Assembly (NCBI GenBank): GCA_902812465.1
Contig: CADDZE010000029.1
Span: 1 to 48,505, forward strand
Direction of reading: 5' to 3'
From: Acidobacteriota bacterium
GTDB taxonomy: Bacteria > Acidobacteriota > Terriglobia > UBA7540
DNA length: 48,505 nt
Below the pieces are notes generated by a model, which did no database searches, was not told the origin of the DNA, and was given only the letters and a program-made list of their open reading frames with translations. Made by a program: the position numbers and the translations under genes. Shown in pieces: positions 4,029 through 11,570 of the stretch (position 1 is its first letter; the number at the start of each line of letters is the position of its first letter).

Positions 4029-7001
4029 ATGTTCGCGCCACCCACCCGCAGGCTGGCGATTGCGTGCCGCTTTCTGTGCCTCGTCCTGATCGGACTCCAA
4101 GTCCCGGCACCGGCTCAAAGTCCCGAAGCCACGCTGGTTGGAACCGTGCAAGATCGGACCGGTGGCCGCCTCCCGGAAGTCAAGATCTCGGCTCAGGCAC
4201 TGCATTCCAGCTTTCACAAGGAAACGAGGACGAACGCGCAAGGCGAGTTCACCCTGTCACCGCTAGTGCTTGACTCGTACCGACTTACCTTCCAGAAGAG
4301 CGGCTGGGTGGACTTGGTGTACACGAATGTAGACGTTACCGTGGGGGGAACGCCGAGCTTGTCAGCCGTCCTGCAGGTGGCTGGCGGACGGCAGACGGTG
4401 ACCGTCCGTGATATCCATCAGCTTCCGCCGCTCGAAACCACCAGCAGCGTTCAGAAGACCGTGGTGACCAGCCAGGAGATTACCGATCTCCCCTTAGCGC
4501 ACCGCAGCTTCGCCAATATCGCCTACTTCGCGCCCATGACCGAGCCGGTCGAGCCTTCGGATCCTACCAAGGCACGCATCACGGCAGTCTCCTTTCAGGG
4601 TAGCTCCGGGTTGAACGTCGACCTCTCGGTGGACGGTGGCGACAACAACGACGATTACATCGGCGGCTTCTTACAGAATTATTCCCCTGAGGCGATACAG
4701 GAGTTTGTGGTGCGGACTAGTCAGTTCGATGCGGACACGTCACGCACGAACGGCGGCTCCGTCATCATTGTCACTCGCCGTGGCACCGACCAGTGGCACG
4801 GCGGCGGAGCCTTCTACGAACGTGCCGCCAGCATGAACGCCCGCAATCCCCTCGATAATCCGCCGCCCATTCCCAAGGCCCCCTTCTCGCGCCAGAACGG
4901 CGCGATGGAACTCGGCGGACCGATTCAGCCGGGCAAACTCTGGTTCTTTACCTCCCTCGAGCTGGTGCGCGAAAACGCCAGCGTGGCCTACAGCGCCAAC
5001 AGCCTGGCCGAGTTCAACGCTCTGGCACAACTGGCGGCACGCGGGGAGATTCCCGGCGTCTCATCCATTGCTGTGCCCACCTCCACCCCGGTACCTTTCC
5101 GCGATCAGCTCTTTGACGCCCGACTCGACTGGAATCAGTCTCCACGCTCGCAGTGGTTCTTTCGCGGCGCCTTTGACTTGAACAAGACTAAAAACAACCT
5201 GGTTCAGCAAGGTACTTTGCCTTCCACAGGTGTGACCACCCGCGCACACTATTACAGTTTCTTAAGCAATCAGCAGTTCAATTTCAACCCGCGCTGGCTG
5301 GGATCATTCACTTTTCAAGCGAGCACCTTCACCAACCACCAGATTCGCAATTCCAATCTGGGTTTTGCCCTCGCCTTCCCGTTCAGCGCCACCTACATCA
5401 CGACGTCCGGCTTCGAGACATTCGGAGACAACCAGTTTGCCACCCCTATCACGGCCTTCCCCGTGGACCGCGAACAGGAGAAATACCAGTTCCGTTACGA
5501 TGTGACCCGCCTGGATCCCGACAACGTGGTGAAGTTCGGGGTAAACTTTATCCATGAACCGGTGCTGAGTGGACGTTTGGCCGATACCGCGGAGCGGCTG
5601 GTCGTTTTCGATCAAGATCCCAGCTTCTATCTGGCAAATAACCAAAGCATCTTGCCGATCATTGAGGGAACCCCGGTCAAGCCCGCTTTCAACGGCGGAT
5701 TCTCGCAGAATGTTCAGCGGCTCGGCACCTACATGCAGGATTCGTGGCGCGTGCGCTCCAACTTCACCCTCAATTGGGGCCTGCGCTACGACACGACGTT
5801 TGGCCTCTTCATTGCCGAGGGCCGCGATCAGAACCAGAACCCAGCGGTCCAGACGCTGCGTAATCTGGGCGTCCCGCTTTCACCGGGCATTCCTCACGAC
5901 TATCGGAAGGCTTTAGCGCCGCGCCTCGGCATTGCCTACGCGCCCGGCGATTCCGGTAAGACGGTTTTGCGCGCAGGGGTAGGCCTGTACTTTAACGACT
6001 TGGCGCAGAATGGCTGGGTGCCCGCCTTCCAGGCCGTGAACACTCCTTTTGACGGGCGCTTGCTGGGACCTGCGGACTCCGGTGCGGTAATCTCACCTGA
6101 TTACCACTCCCCCTATGACTTTCAGGCCAGCGCCGGTTTCGAGCACGAGTTCAATGAAGCCTGGCAATTGACGTTGCAGTTCCAGCATCACAAGGGAAAC
6201 CACCAGTACCGCGCCTATCCCTACGTTTCTGGCGTCAGCCTGCCGGCTGACTCGCCCTCCATCACCCTGTATCGCACGGATAACCGCTCGCGCTACGACG
6301 GCTTTTCCGTCGCCCTGCGACACCACAGCCGGCGGCTTGATTTGATGGCGCACTACACGCTGGCGAGTGCCGCCACCTGGGGTTCCGTGGTCGGCGAGCT
6401 GTTTGACTACGTGAACGGCGTTTCGAATCCCCTCCACGCCTTCGGGCCGGGGGACTACGGGCCTTCGGGCGAGGACGCTCGCCATCGCTTCGTCCTGGCC
6501 GGCGCCTGGAACCTGCCGAAGGGATTCCAAGTTTCGATGCTCTCCCAGGCCGAAAGCGCCCGTCCTTTCACCATGTCGACGCCAGTCGACGTCAACGGGG
6601 ATGGCAACGACTTCAACGACCGTGCGGTGGTCAACGGTGTTCAGACGACCCTCGACGAGTTCCGCGGCACACCCCTCTTTCAGGTGGACATGCGCGTGAG
6701 CCGCGATTTCAATTTCTCGGAAAAGGTTTCCGTACGCCCCTTCATCGAGTTCTTCAACCTATTCAACCGAGTCAATCCCGGGAACAACTTCGTGCCGGAC
6801 ATTTCCGCCCTGCCCGTGCCCGTCAACAACCTGTATAACGCCACCGCCTTCTGTTTGAAGGCGGACTGCACCCAGACGGCGCCCATCCGCAGCCGGCTTG
6901 ATCTGCGCGTGCCGGCAGGCGCGTTGGGAGACTTCTTCGGTCCGGGCACCACGGTGGGTATTCCCTTCGCGGCGCAGGTTGGGGTGCGGGTGAGCTTCTA
7001 G
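4029..7001 (+). CDS. TonB-dependent receptor-like outer-membrane protein with carboxypeptidase regulatory domain
   Basis: Outer-membrane transporter of the Oar-like type common in Acidobacteriota, 990 aa. The ATG follows GGAGGG. Residues 1-30 form a signal peptide ending near VPAPAQ. Residues about 33-115 are a carboxypeptidase-regulatory-like beta-sandwich (GTVQDRTGGRLPEVKI, TNAQGEFTLSPL). A plug-like region follows (VTSQEITDLPLAHRSFANIA, VDGGDNNDDYIGG). The rest has alternating beta-strand character and ends in an aromatic residue (VGVRVSF), typical of barrel insertion. It stands alone between long intergenic regions. The ligand is unknown; neighbouring sugar genes suggest an oligosaccharide, as inference only. 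Confidence 0.88.
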   Translation: MFAPPTRRLAIACRFLCLVLIGLQVPAPAQSPEATLVGTVQDRTGGRLPEVKISAQALHSSFHKETRTNAQGEFTLSPLVLDSYRLTFQKSGWVDLVYTNVDVTVGGTPSLSAVLQVAGGRQTVTVRDIHQLPPLETTSSVQKTVVTSQEITDLPLAHRSFANIAYFAPMTEPVEPSDPTKARITAVSFQGSSGLNVDLSVDGGDNNDDYIGGFLQNYSPEAIQEFVVRTSQFDADTSRTNGGSVIIVTRRGTDQWHGGGAFYERAASMNARNPLDNPPPIPKAPFSRQNGAMELGGPIQPGKLWFFTSLELVRENASVAYSANSLAEFNALAQLAARGEIPGVSSIAVPTSTPVPFRDQLFDARLDWNQSPRSQWFFRGAFDLNKTKNNLVQQGTLPSTGVTTRAHYYSFLSNQQFNFNPRWLGSFTFQASTFTNHQIRNSNLGFALAFPFSATYITTSGFETFGDNQFATPITAFPVDREQEKYQFRYDVTRLDPDNVVKFGVNFIHEPVLSGRLADTAERLVVFDQDPSFYLANNQSILPIIEGTPVKPAFNGGFSQNVQRLGTYMQDSWRVRSNFTLNWGLRYDTTFGLFIAEGRDQNQNPAVQTLRNLGVPLSPGIPHDYRKALAPRLGIAYAPGDSGKTVLRAGVGLYFNDLAQNGWVPAFQAVNTPFDGRLLGPADSGAVISPDYHSPYDFQASAGFEHEFNEAWQLTLQFQHHKGNHQYRAYPYVSGVSLPADSPSITLYRTDNRSRYDGFSVALRHHSRRLDLMAHYTLASAATWGSVVGELFDYVNGVSNPLHAFGPGDYGPSGEDARHRFVLAGAWNLPKGFQVSMLSQAESARPFTMSTPVDVNGDGNDFNDRAVVNGVQTTLDEFRGTPLFQVDMRVSRDFNFSEKVSVRPFIEFFNLFNRVNPGNNFVPDISALPVPVNNLYNATAFCLKADCTQTAPIRSRLDLRVPAGALGDFFGPGTTVGIPFAAQVGVRVSF

Positions 7002-7112: not shown

Positions 7113-7141
7113 TTGACAGGGGCAGGGAAGTGGGCGAGAAT
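7113..7141 (+). promoter_or_regulatory. Sigma70-type promoter of the ilv operon
   Basis: A perfect TTGACA at 7113-7118, a 17-base spacer and GAGAAT at 7136-7141 (four of six -10 bases). The predicted transcript starts near 7148, inside the palindrome at 7146-7161, leaving a leader of about 38 bases before the ilvB ATG at 7186. There is no room for a classical leader-peptide attenuator. Confidence 0.6.
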
Positions 7142-7145
7142 GACC

Positions 7146-7169
7146 TACCGACTGGTCGGTACTGACCAG
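7146..7169 (+). promoter_or_regulatory. Palindromic operator overlapping the ilv transcription start
   Basis: TACCGACTGGTCGGTA (7146-7161) is a near-perfect 16-bp palindrome: 7-bp arms, 2-bp centre. An interlocking repeat, CTGGTC (7152-7157) and GACCAG (7164-7169), extends it. Overlapping GGTC/GACC arms of this size are typical of TetR-family operators. It sits just after the -10, where a bound protein would block transcription. No TetR gene is in the window, so the regulator is unknown. Confidence 0.5.
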
Positions 7170-7185
7170 CGGCACGGTGCATTCT

Positions 7186-8973
7186 ATGCCTAAACCCCTC
7201 TCCGGTTCGGAATTACTGCTGCGGAGCCTCGTCGAACAGCGCGTCGACGTGGTCTTCGGCCTTCCGGGCGGCGCTGTCCTGCCGCTCTATGATGCTTTAT
7301 ACAGTGCGGGCATCCGCCACCTCTTGGTGCGTCACGAGCAAGCTGCAGCCTTTGCCGCCGATGGCTACGCTCGCGCCTCCGGCAAGCCCGGTGTCTGTCT
7401 GGCTACCTCGGGGCCGGGAGCCACCAACCTGCTCACTGGTCTCACGTCGGCGCTGATGGACTCCATTCCCGTCGTCGCGCTTACCGGCCAGGTCCCGGCA
7501 TCCTTGATCGGCAAGGATGCCTTTCAGGAAGCGGACACGGTTGGTTTAAGCTTGCCCGCCACCAAGCACTGTTTCGCGGTCCGCACGGCCGCGGAGATTC
7601 CTAGCATCATCCGCCGTGCCTTTCATACCGCGGTCTCTGGCCGGCCGGGGCCGGTGCTGGTAGATCTTCCTAAAAGTGTCTTGGTGGAGAAGGTGGAAGA
7701 GGACATCGCCCAGGCTGCGTCACCGGGCAGCAACGATGGGCAACTCACCCGAAGGCGTTCACGAGAATGGCTGCCGGCGGATATTGAGCGCGCGGCCGCC
7801 ATGCTGCTGGAAAGCCGGCGCGCCGTGCTCTACGCGGGCGGAGGCGTCGTACACGCCGAAGCTTGGAAAGAGCTGCGTGAACTTGCCGAGCTTCTCCAGA
7901 TTCCGGTCACCACGACGCTCATGGGCATGAGCGCTTTCCCGTCGCGGCATCCGCTCTCGCTGGGCATGCTGGGCATGCATGGTTCCTATGCCACCAACAT
8001 GGCGATCTGCGAGTGTGACCTGCTGGTGGCCATCGGGGCGCGCTTTGACGATCGAGTGACAGGCCGCGTGGATGCGTTCGCCGTCAACGCCCGCAAGATT
8101 CAAATTGATGTTGATCCCTCGGAGGTCAACAAGAACGTGCGGGTCGATTTGGCTCTGGTGGGCGATGCACGGGAGGCGCTGGCGGCGATTGTGGATTGCC
8201 TGAAGCATCGCGCGCGGTGCGCCGATTCGGGTTCCGACCGTACCGCCTCCCTCGAAGACCGGCGGCGCTGGCTTGAGCAGATCGATCGTTGGCGCGCCGA
8301 GCACCCACTGACCTACGACAAGTACGCGCACAACCTCAAGCCGCAGCACGTCATCGAGACCCTGTCGCGCTATGCCGAAGAGGATGCCATCGTGGCAGTC
8401 GATGTGGGGCAGCACCAGATGTGGGCGGCTCAGTTCTACGACTTCTACCACCCGCGCACCTGGCTTTCTTCCAGCGGCCTGGGGGCCATGGGCTACGGCT
8501 TTCCCGCCGCCATGGGCGCTCAGGTGGCATTCCCCGACCGCCAGGTCATCGCCATCGTCGGCGACGGCGGTTTCCAGATGACCCTCAATGATTTGGCCAC
8601 CGTCGCTCAGTACCGCATCCCGGTGAAGATTGCCATCATTAATAACCGCGCCCTGGGCATGGTCCGGCAGTGGCAGGAGATCTTCTTTGAAAAGCGCTAC
8701 TGCGATATCGACCTCAATTTTGCCCCCGACTTCGCCAAGCTGGCGGAGTCTTACGGCATTCGCGGGATGCGGGTTGAGCATCGTACAGAGCTGCGCGACG
8801 CCATCCGCGAGCTGCTCAGCGACCGCGAGCCACGCCTGGCCGACTTCTGGGTGGATCCCGCCGAAAACGTCTATCCCATCGTGCCGCCCGGCGGGGCGCT
8901 GGCGGACATGGTGGTGGAGCCGCCGCGCGTCCTGGTGGAGGAAGAGGCACTGGACGATCTCTGGGCCGTGTGA
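7186..8973 (+). CDS. ilvB: Acetolactate synthase, large catalytic subunit
   Basis: ThDP-dependent condensation of pyruvate to 2-acetolactate, or with 2-oxobutyrate to 2-aceto-2-hydroxybutyrate: the first common step of valine, leucine and isoleucine synthesis. The protein is 595 aa, a normal length. FGLPGG and VRHEQAA near residues 25-55 include the catalytic glutamate. The middle domain has GGGVVHAEAW, and the ThDP-Mg motif GDGGFQMTLNDLATV...NN lies at about 458-487. The ATG at 7186 is preferred; a GTG at 7177 is in frame. No strong ribosome site is visible. First gene of ilvB - ACT subunit - ilvC - proC. Confidence 0.95.
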   Translation: MPKPLSGSELLLRSLVEQRVDVVFGLPGGAVLPLYDALYSAGIRHLLVRHEQAAAFAADGYARASGKPGVCLATSGPGATNLLTGLTSALMDSIPVVALTGQVPASLIGKDAFQEADTVGLSLPATKHCFAVRTAAEIPSIIRRAFHTAVSGRPGPVLVDLPKSVLVEKVEEDIAQAASPGSNDGQLTRRRSREWLPADIERAAAMLLESRRAVLYAGGGVVHAEAWKELRELAELLQIPVTTTLMGMSAFPSRHPLSLGMLGMHGSYATNMAICECDLLVAIGARFDDRVTGRVDAFAVNARKIQIDVDPSEVNKNVRVDLALVGDAREALAAIVDCLKHRARCADSGSDRTASLEDRRRWLEQIDRWRAEHPLTYDKYAHNLKPQHVIETLSRYAEEDAIVAVDVGQHQMWAAQFYDFYHPRTWLSSSGLGAMGYGFPAAMGAQVAFPDRQVIAIVGDGGFQMTLNDLATVAQYRIPVKIAIINNRALGMVRQWQEIFFEKRYCDIDLNFAPDFAKLAESYGIRGMRVEHRTELRDAIRELLSDREPRLADFWVDPAENVYPIVPPGGALADMVVEPPRVLVEEEALDDLWAV

Positions 8974-9060
8974 AACTCGGGCCTCCGGCGCGAAAGGCCG
9001 GCATGGGAGGCCCAGCGCCCAGCGGTTTAAAATCGCACCTGATTGAATAAAGAGCGACGT

Positions 9061-9528
9061 ATGAAGTGGCTGGTTCGGCTAGAAATCGACGACGACCCGA
9101 TTGTTCCTTGCCGGTTGATGAACGTCTTCCGCCGCAAAGGGCTGAAGATCGTCACCTTGACGATGTCCGCTGGACCACCGTTCACCGTGCTGGCTCTGGT
9201 CGACACACCGGAAAGTGATATCGATCACCTCTTTCACATTCTGCGGCAGACGGGAGGCGTCCGGCACGTCACTTACTACCTGCCGCAGGCCGGGGCGCAG
9301 GCTCCGCTCATGTTTCTCGACAGCGAGACGGACGGCTCCGGCGTCGCCCGCTTGCTGCAAGCCTTTCCCGAGGCCAGGGTAATTTGCGGAAGTAGCGGGA
9401 AGTACGTGCTCGAGCTTCCTCGTGCCGCCTCCGGTTCACTATCCGATGGAGTGGGAGCAGCCCTCCTCCCGCTCGCTCGCGTCCGAAGCACACGCGCCGA
9501 CGCCGAGGTGGCGTGCGGGCCCGCGTGA
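9061..9528 (+). CDS. Acetolactate synthase small-subunit-like ACT protein
   Basis: Likely regulatory subunit of acetolactate synthase, 155 aa. Residues 1-75 form an ACT domain (VRLEIDDDPIVPCRLMNVF, RKGLKIVTLTM, FTVLALVD, GGVRHVTYYLP), the fold that binds valine in IlvH/IlvN. The second half (LMFLDSETDGSGVARLL..FPEARVICG) is not recognisable as the usual small-subunit C-terminal domain, and the common ESGAL ligand-loop motif is absent. The ATG at 9061 is chosen over an in-frame TTG at 9043. It lies 87 bp after ilvB and 64 bp before ilvC, which supports the assignment more than sequence alone. Feedback control may be weak or respond to another ligand. Confidence 0.7.
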   Translation: MKWLVRLEIDDDPIVPCRLMNVFRRKGLKIVTLTMSAGPPFTVLALVDTPESDIDHLFHILRQTGGVRHVTYYLPQAGAQAPLMFLDSETDGSGVARLLQAFPEARVICGSSGKYVLELPRAASGSLSDGVGAALLPLARVRSTRADAEVACGPA

Positions 9529-9592: not shown

Positions 9593-10624
9593 ATGGCGCA
9601 CGTCTATTACGAAAAGGACGCTAATCCGAAACAGCTCGCGGGCAAGACCATCGCGATTATCGGCTATGGCAGCCAGGGCCACGCTCACGCGCTCAATCTG
9701 CGCGACAGCGGGCATCAGGTCATCATCGGGCTTCCGCCGGCCAGCGCTTCGCGCGCCAAGGCGTCAGCCCAAAAACTTGAGGTCGTTGAGCCTGGGGAGG
9801 CCGCGCGGCGCGGCGATATCATCGCCGTGCTCATTCCCGATCCGGTGCAACCCAGGGTCTACGCCGAGGCCATTGCACCCCATCTGGGCCCTGGAAAGAC
9901 TCTGCTCTTTGCGCATGGGTTCAACATCCATTTCAAGTTTATCAGTCCGCCTCCCGAGGTCGATGTCATCATGGTGGCGCCCAAATCACCGGGACATCGC
10001 ATGCGCGAGCTGTTCACCGAAGGCATCGGCGTGCCGGCGCTGCTGGCCGTCGAGCGTGACGCGTCCGGGCAGGCGGAGCCCAACGCGCTGGCCTATGCGC
10101 AGGGCATCGGCTGCCTGAAGGCGGGCGTTATCCGCACGACCTTCAAGGAAGAAACCGAGACCGACCTCTTCGGCGAGCAGGCCGTGCTCTGTGGCGGCGT
10201 CTCGGCGCTCATCACCGCGGCGTTTGAAACGCTGGTAGACGCCGGTTACCAGCCGGAAATCGCCTACTTCGAGTGCTTGCACGAGCTGAAACTGATCGTC
10301 GACCTCATCTACCAGGGCGGCATCAAGTACATGCGCTATTCGGTCAGCGACACCGCCGAATACGGCGACTATACGCGCGGTCCCGTAGTGATCGATGCGC
10401 ACGTGCGGGAAACCATGAAGCGCATCCTGGCCGACGTTCAGAGCGGCAAGTTTGCCCAGGAGTGGATGGAAGAGAATGCTCAAGGACGGAAAAATTTCTT
10501 GGCCTTGCGCGCCCGGGCGGCCGATCACCTCATCGAGCAGGTGGGCGTTGAGCTGCGCAAAATGATGGCGTGGAACCGGCCGGCCGAAGAACTCACCGCC
10601 GCACAGGCCAGCGCGCGCCGCTGA
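9593..10624 (+). CDS. ilvC: Ketol-acid reductoisomerase, class I
   Basis: Mg-dependent alkyl migration and NADPH reduction of acetohydroxy acids to dihydroxy acids, the second common step of branched-chain synthesis. The protein is 343 aa, the class I length. The ATG follows GGAGG. The Rossmann motif [11 protein letters not shown] is at about residues 24-34. The cofactor loop region, [13 protein letters not shown], has LPPASAS where many relatives have LRPGSAS. The knotted C-terminal domain includes [20 protein letters not shown] with the metal ligands. Third gene of the ilv operon; proC follows after 70 bp. Confidence 0.95.
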
Positions 10625-10694: not shown

Positions 10695-11570
10695 ATGAGC
10701 TCTCATGCGTTGGTTTCGGCGAAAGGCCGGCACAGCCAGGAAGCAGCCGGCTCGGTGAGGAAGCTGGCCCTGCTTGGTGCCGGCAAGCTGGGCGAAGGAT
10801 TGCTGGCCGGCATGCTGAGTTCGCAGTTCATTTCCGCCTCCCGCGTTGCTGCCACCGTGGCCCATCAGCCGCGCGCGGACGAACTGCGACATAAGTACGG
10901 CATCAGCGCCTCGACCAACAATCGCGAGGCCGTGGCCGGGGCCGACCTGGTGCTGATCTGCCTTAAGCCGCAGCAGGTACGAAGCGTGCTGGCGGAGGTG
11001 AAGCGCGACTTGCGCAAGGACGCGCTGGTAATCTCGGCGGCGGCCAGCGTCACCATCGCCATGATCGAGAGCGCCATTGGCCACCCGGTGAGAGTGGTGC
11101 GGGCCATGCCCAATACGCCGTGCCTGATTCGCCAAGGCATGACCGCGCTGGCCCCCGGCCAGCACGCAACCGAACAGGACGTGCGGCTGGCGCGGGTCAT
11201 CTTTGACTCGATGGGCCGTACGGTGGTGGCCGACGAAAAACATATGGATGCCATTACCGGCCTCTCCGCTTCCGGTCCGGCGTATGTTTACCTGATCATC
11301 GAATCGCTGGCTGAGGCGGGGGTAAAACTGGGATTGCCGCGCGACCTCTCGACCGAGCTTTCGGCGCAGACCTTGCTGGGCGCATCAGCCTTGGTGCTCC
11401 ACACGGGCGAGCATCCCGCCAAACTCAAGGATGTGGTCACCACGCCGGCGGGATGCACCATCGACGGATTGCTGGAACTAGAGGAAGGGGGGCTGCGCGT
11501 GACGCTGATCAAGGCCGTGGTTCGCGCCGCGCAGCGCGCGCGCCAACTGGTGGAAGGGCAGAATAGCTGA
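10695..11570 (+). CDS. proC: Pyrroline-5-carboxylate reductase
   Basis: NAD(P)H-dependent reduction of 1-pyrroline-5-carboxylate to proline, the last step of proline synthesis. 291 aa from the ATG at 10695. Motifs: LALLGAGKLGEGLLAG (dinucleotide fold), LICLKPQQV, VRAMPNTPCLI and GLSASGPAYVYL, then DVVTTPAGCTIDGL near the C-terminus. Family members usually begin almost at the first beta strand, so the GTG at 10755 (VRKLALLG) is a real alternative start, about 20 residues shorter. It follows ilvC by 70 bp and is probably the last gene of the operon. It converges on the DUF4097 gene 30 bp away. Confidence 0.93.
   Translation: MSSHALVSAKGRHSQEAAGSVRKLALLGAGKLGEGLLAGMLSSQFISASRVAATVAHQPRADELRHKYGISASTNNREAVAGADLVLICLKPQQVRSVLAEVKRDLRKDALVISAAASVTIAMIESAIGHPVRVVRAMPNTPCLIRQGMTALAPGQHATEQDVRLARVIFDSMGRTVVADEKHMDAITGLSASGPAYVYLIIESLAEAGVKLGLPRDLSTELSAQTLLGASALVLHTGEHPAKLKDVVTTPAGCTIDGLLELEEGGLRVTLIKAVVRAAQRARQLVEGQNS

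Follow-up and report, generated by a model that had tools for sequence, protein, structure and literature searches.

The regulation of branched-chain amino acid synthesis in Acidobacteriota is the question raised by an ilv locus on a stretch of 48,505 nucleotides (Terriglobia, UBA7540; GenBank assembly GCA_902812465.1, contig CADDZE010000029.1), which is called the window in the following. Acidobacteriota occur in soils at high abundance and are difficult to cultivate, and to our knowledge little is known about how their amino acid synthesis is regulated. The known systems controlling ilv and leu genes comprise attenuation, Lrp, CodY, T-boxes, IlvY and LeuO, and we know of none among them that represents a TetR repressor of the acyl-CoA type. 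The initial annotation had placed a TetR-like operator on the transcription start of the ilv operon and saw no regulator gene nearby, which holds for the window, while in relatives a TetR gene adjoins leuA or ilvCB. Our analysis makes it quite likely that the conserved box at this promoter serves as operator for an AibR-like TetR protein, which is encoded elsewhere in the genome and would feed back on ilv expression.

Table 1. Features of the ilv locus in the window and the candidate regulator gene (feature, position, strand, basis or remark); positions refer to the window unless a contig is named.
-35 hexamer TTGACA	7113..7118	+	read from sequence; TTGAC kept in relatives
-10 hexamer GAGAAT	7136..7141	+	17-nt spacer after -35
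conserved AibR-type box ACCTACCGACTGGTCGGTA	7143..7161	+	conservation across ilvB loci and pattern search in the window
interlocking CTGGTC/GACCAG repeat	7152..7169 (arms 7152-7157/7164-7169)	+	right arm unconserved
ilvB, acetolactate synthase large subunit, putatively box-controlled	7186..8973	+	TIGR00118, 773 bits vs cut-off 538
small ORF in ilvN/ilvM position, presumed regulatory subunit	9043..9528	+	position only
ilvC, ketol-acid reductoisomerase	9593..10624	+	TIGR00465
proC, pyrroline-5-carboxylate reductase, next same-strand gene (position only)	10695..11570	+	TIGR00112
candidate AibR-like TetR (group A)	own genome (G000), contig C6:5870-6499	-	TetR_N and TetR_C_24

The promoter with the directly following palindrome is present at 7113-7161 as initially described (Table 1), whereby the -10 of most relatives reads TANNNT and is situated one bp closer to the box than GAGAAT in the window. 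The annotated 16-bp palindrome does exist as an inverted repeat with the symmetric core TACCGACTGGTCGGTA at 7146-7161, but it is imperfect, since two 7-bp arms flank a 2-nt TG spacer; the core is preceded by ACC at 7143-7145. The end of the box is separated by 24 nt from the ATG of ilvB at 7186, which was chosen as start from the alignment to relatives, with GTG 7177 being another possible start. If the transcription start is placed from the -10 hexamer, it would be overlapped by the symmetric core. When at most 2 mismatches were allowed, the pattern TACCGACNNGTCGGTA had a single and exact match in the window at an expectation of 0.08 from shuffled sequences (8 of 100 window shuffles contained such a match). 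The proposed genome-wide scan for the palindrome revealed the exact 16-mer as a single copy in the entire own genome, all other matches showing 3 mismatches, and the total of 26 matches was smaller than the 43 obtained with the control. The interlocking CTGGTC/GACCAG repeat is likewise found in the window, but it is not conserved among relatives: GACCAG occurs within 16 nt past the box at only 1 of 26 loci, which is the window's own, hence this repeat is probably incidental.

The comparison of ilvB upstream regions among relatives had been named as a check, a lack of conservation of the palindrome being regarded as refutation. Orthologs of ilvB with 71-100% identity were collected from 29 loci of the window's family, including its own. 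The conservation count covered the 27 loci with readable upstream DNA, and did not include two loci starting inside ilvB (L045, L047) or a class outgroup (L048). The box is kept within 1 mismatch at 26 of these 27 family loci. The exception is genome G015, in which the region upstream of ilvB retains only the TACCTACC half and which also contains only a fragment of the regulator. The conserved box extends to ACC (24-26 of 26 loci for each position), and TTGAC is found 32-36 bp upstream of it at all 26 loci, whereas the distance between the box and the aligned ilvB start varies from 22 to 162 nt. Correspondingly, the column information is near-maximal across ACC-TACCGACYRGTCGGTA and near zero for most of the spacer and leader. 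The fixed position relative to the promoter in combination with the variable leader therefore points to an operator on the transcription start rather than to an RNA element in the leader. Sites within 1 mismatch exist in 33 of the 39 family genomes and in all 18 high-quality ones. On the level of sequence comparison, the palindrome at the ilv promoter is confirmed as a real and strongly conserved site.

The box is also associated with further genes of branched-chain amino acid synthesis. From 20 fetched regions around family sites, eight have such genes directly downstream. Among the targets are leuC in genus g10 (all three genomes, with a TTGAC spacing of 33 bp in each case), ilvC in G010, leuA in G031, a divergent ilvB (about 48% identity) in G010 and G024, and one further ilvB in G061; gene identities were checked with NCBIfam models for the ilvC and for one gene each of leuC, leuA and divergent ilvB. 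The genomes G010, G024 and G031 were found to harbor only the divergent type of ilvB (E below 1e-150), and a function of the box can be argued because they keep it at ilv or leu genes despite this divergence. No branched-chain gene was present downstream in the other 12 regions (L081-L090, L092, L097). In this group, thrC in G022 (L084) was rejected as target, since the promoter-like site faces off the contig end and this thrC gave no match to the DNA preceding ilvB in G005. Also gltX in G016 (L082) was dismissed, where a site is situated upstream of the gene and the usual promoter spacing is absent. Additional family sites with 1 mismatch were recorded in G002 (several), G019 (one) and G024 (one).

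Regarding the regulator, the five family genomes inspected each encode 3-7 proteins with a TetR_N domain, and two ortholog groups are common to all five. One of them, group A, occurs in 34 of the 39 genomes of the family, while the five genomes lacking it are 57-88% complete. The closest solved structures by sequence are 5k7f, 5k7h and 5k7z, which the fold search identified as AibR in its apo form, with isovaleryl-CoA, and with isovaleryl-CoA plus operator DNA, respectively. Group A proteins share 41-43% identity with AibR from Myxococcus xanthus and have unchanged recognition residues (TKAGLYHH). The identity amounts to 51% in the DNA-binding part and 36% in the ligand part, the latter compared with 23-26% towards outgroup TetRs. 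The modelled ortholog from G005 has its best fold match with 5k7z (TM 0.92 normalized to target length, Z 23.5; next protein 19.6). In the phylogenetic tree, group A forms its own clade (100/99) outside of the clade comprising myxobacterial AibR and relatives from Thermoanaerobaculia (98/94), with weak support for the branching order of the clades; because of this placement the regulator is termed AibR-like and not AibR. At 19 of 28 family loci the group A gene is followed in line by a pheA-like motif, according to a motif match in which one of the nine negatives offered 87 bp only for inspection. In G005, this following gene was recognized as prephenate dehydratase by Pfam (PF00800), and the motif also follows the group A gene in the window's own genome. 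For the window's family, a control of the TetR gene by its own product was considered and rejected, since no box within 1 mismatch occurs upstream of it at 30 loci (0/30; G007 has one at 2 mismatches). Hence, the link between box and regulator within this family is drawn from homology.

Relatives carry the same box at the promoter of the TetR gene itself, which supports the earlier assignment to the TetR family and specifies it to an AibR-like candidate. In the myxobacterial set of 31 loci (L182-L211, L223), whose box letters were read from genome DNA, aibR is preceded by the box at 30 loci, with the box start lying 37-90 bp upstream. In M. xanthus, TTGAC...ACCTACCGGTCGGTAGG precedes aibR, and mvaS is located further along the operon. 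One member of this set (L185) comes from a contig titled Comamonas sp. KCTC 72670, which is probably mislabelled, as the AibR on it is 97% identical and accompanied by the box of the myxobacteria. Within the class of the window, 61 genomes outside its family and order were examined for both TetR and box. The box was found in 12 of 13 genomes with a strong group A relative (E below 1e-45, a threshold picked after viewing the list) versus 6 of 48 genomes without (Fisher p 1e-7), and in 12 of 12 class genomes, belonging to two other families, it immediately precedes the related TetR gene itself.

The gene neighborhoods in these relatives connect box, regulator and target more directly. In family f9, the box and the TetR gene are followed by leuA (L270-L272), and in G063 the TetR gene is followed by leuA and leuB. 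Family f4 has a second box between the ilv operon (ilvNCB) and fabI, the fabI side being recognized in five of six regions (L262-L266 from G087, G081, G069, G054 and G092) and FabI being checked with NCBIfam in one region; this arrangement suggests that the synthesis of amino acids and that of fatty acids are controlled together. On an Acidobacteria contig (L229), ilvC-ilvB and the TetR gene diverge around TACCGACCGGTCGGTA. The TetR gene is also divergent from ilvCB in G086, yet there no site within 1 mismatch was detected; unlike L229 and G086, L226 and L245 have no ilv genes beside the TetR gene. Searching phylum-wide for a 22-bp version of the box gave hits in 17 of 297 genomes and none in controls; an AibR-like TetR is encoded beside the box at 8 of the 17 loci, the other 9, all from one family, being without. 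Collectively, the comparison shows a site that, judged from its sequence context, behaves as a real operator, is locked to the promoter and tied to ilv and leu genes, and has counterparts at the own promoters of related regulators.

Some variants were observed apart from these cases. A variant box, ACCTACCGTCCGGTCGGTCGGT, is present in 8 genomes of family f57 (L291-L298), next to a thiolase-like gene where ORFs were readable; the 3-kb loci contain no AibR-like TetR. In Chloroflexi, the TetR gene of more distant AibR relatives (L253, L254, L258, L259) is preceded by another palindrome, AACCGAACGTTCGTTT or CACCGAACGTTCGTTT, and a different helix, MHRGSLYHY, was seen in two of the four.

The system resembles AibR of M. 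xanthus in the box, which there reads TACCTACCGGTCGGTA with the same layout after TTGAC, in addition to the recognition residues and fold mentioned above. According to two reports, AibR is the repressor of the aib operon in its isovaleryl-CoA-bound form (PMC6018408, PMC9131029). In contrast to AibR, which controls this alternative isovaleryl-CoA operon and shuts the pathway off at ample supply of its product isovaleryl-CoA, the targets in the window's family are ilv and leu genes, and the group A gene is unlinked to its presumed target. HMG-CoA synthase (PF08540) was found in 0 of 39 family genomes, hence the known AibR target is absent from the family, and group A is not part of an aib operon with mvaS. 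A second system with a similar inverted repeat, as compared by the repeat letters, is the TetR protein PaaR of Burkholderia cenocepacia, for which it is reported that ACCGACCGGTCGGT is required for repression of phenylacetate catabolism (PMC2770484). The PaaR repeat differs in serving catabolic genes and in being situated between -35 and -10. Near-identical 16-mers were also seen at or near TetR genes with other helices, namely VTKGSFFHHF in G038 (L278:3727-4356) and ATKGALFHYF in G108 (L276). Since PaaR and these TetRs have similar 16-mers, the box motif alone is not specific for AibR.

In the favored model, dimers of the TetR encoded on contig C6 would bind ACCTACCGACYRGTCGGTA directly past the -10 hexamer and thereby block RNA polymerase at the ilvB start. 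Repression is suggested by the position of the box, while the naming of this protein as the one binding the box in the window follows from the sequence relationships and should be read as a prediction. In analogy to AibR, isovaleryl-CoA or a related branched acyl-CoA derived from leucine could load the repressor and thereby promote DNA binding. Such a corepressor would be in line with homology and the logic of the targets, and the assumption of a branched-chain acyl-CoA fits because AibR binds isovaleryl-CoA. A leucine-derived acyl-CoA would then feed back on ilv transcription and in relatives also on leu genes and fabI. The simplest reading is an end-product feedback through isovaleryl-CoA, which originates from leucine and also primes iso-fatty acids. 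With regard to a possible branched-chain keto acid dehydrogenase, a PF00676 search of the own genome yielded four E1-type dehydrogenase genes, and the two examined match models of pyruvate dehydrogenase E1 alpha below cut-off.

A rival reading concerns the signal. The same AibR-like regulator and operator might respond to another ligand, such as isobutyryl-CoA, 2-methylbutyryl-CoA, an aromatic acyl-CoA or a keto acid, or might work with opposite polarity, the ligand acting as inducer; we regard this as a serious competitor with somewhat less than an even chance. The ligand domain is just 36% identical to that of AibR, PaaR with its similar box controls phenylacetate genes, and the pheA gene in line with the TetR gene hints at a broader signal from amino acids. 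However, the identity of this domain to outgroup TetRs is lower still, the target genes are ilv, leu and fabI, and AibR is reported to repress in the isovaleryl-CoA-bound form. It is improbable that a different TetR binds the box, i.e. the BetI-like group B or an unrelated one. Group B is present in all five genomes tested and unrelated TetRs use similar 16-mers, but inspection of five upstream regions of group B by eye revealed no box-like palindrome, and the consistent occurrence of the box at group A relatives in the class and at aibR in myxobacteria favors the AibR-like protein.

An action of the inverted repeats as RNA, either as a hairpin in the 5' leader or as attenuator, is very improbable. 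The leader predicted for the window folds at -17.3 kcal/mol (z -1.9), but the right arm of the hairpin is unconserved, the box keeps a fixed position relative to the -10 and begins upstream of the presumed transcription start, and the same box serves unrelated operons. Moreover, no terminator was found, and no Rfam leader family came near its cut-off at the window site (best 16.5 bits versus 63.6 needed). The locus thus differs from T-box and other RNA-leader control, while sharing with the known ilv/leu systems the proposed feedback on branched-chain amino acid synthesis. A chance palindrome, finally, has a negligible probability: the window taken alone gives a modest expectation only, as seen from the shuffles mentioned above, but this reading is already refuted by the retention of the box at nearly all orthologous loci.

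AibR, its fold and its ligand are already known, while the genome comparisons appear to reveal something new, namely that in part of the phylum the AibR box and a regulator resembling AibR are associated with ilv, leu and fabI. Among the matches listed in a search covering a small part of the literature, there was no report on AibR or another TetR acting on ilv or leu in Acidobacteriota. A specific candidate regulator, its predicted operator and a target set are now open to in vitro work. The data suggest that an acyl-CoA signal related to membrane-lipid primers takes the place of the amino-acid signals used by model bacteria. Going beyond the individual locus, we tentatively propose, as an idea that may well turn out wrong, that an AibR-type acyl-CoA sensor is a main regulator of branched-chain amino acid synthesis in Acidobacteriota. 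Through a single box and a single TetR, the genes ilvBNC, leuA, leuCD and, in one family, also fabI would respond to the level of leucine-derived isovaleryl-CoA. Synthesis would thereby be tuned to the supply of iso-fatty-acid primers for iso-C15 membranes, and myxobacterial AibR would represent the same circuit moved to the alternative isovaleryl-CoA pathway. According to one report, the acidobacterium Solibacter usitatus is rich in iso-C15 lipids, and the brGDGT paleoclimate lipids are proposed to derive from iso-C15 fatty acids (PMC10087280), hence the control of their primer supply could be of wider interest.

Two minor observations concern the surroundings of the ilv promoter. The small ORF between ilvB and ilvC, searched as 9064-9525, gave no family match, neither in NCBIfam (E 1e-20) nor in Pfam (E 1e-6). 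Upstream of the promoter, an ORF of 990 aa (window 4029-7001) resembles by eye the TonB-dependent, carboxypeptidase-regulatory-like proteins of the Acidobacteria type.
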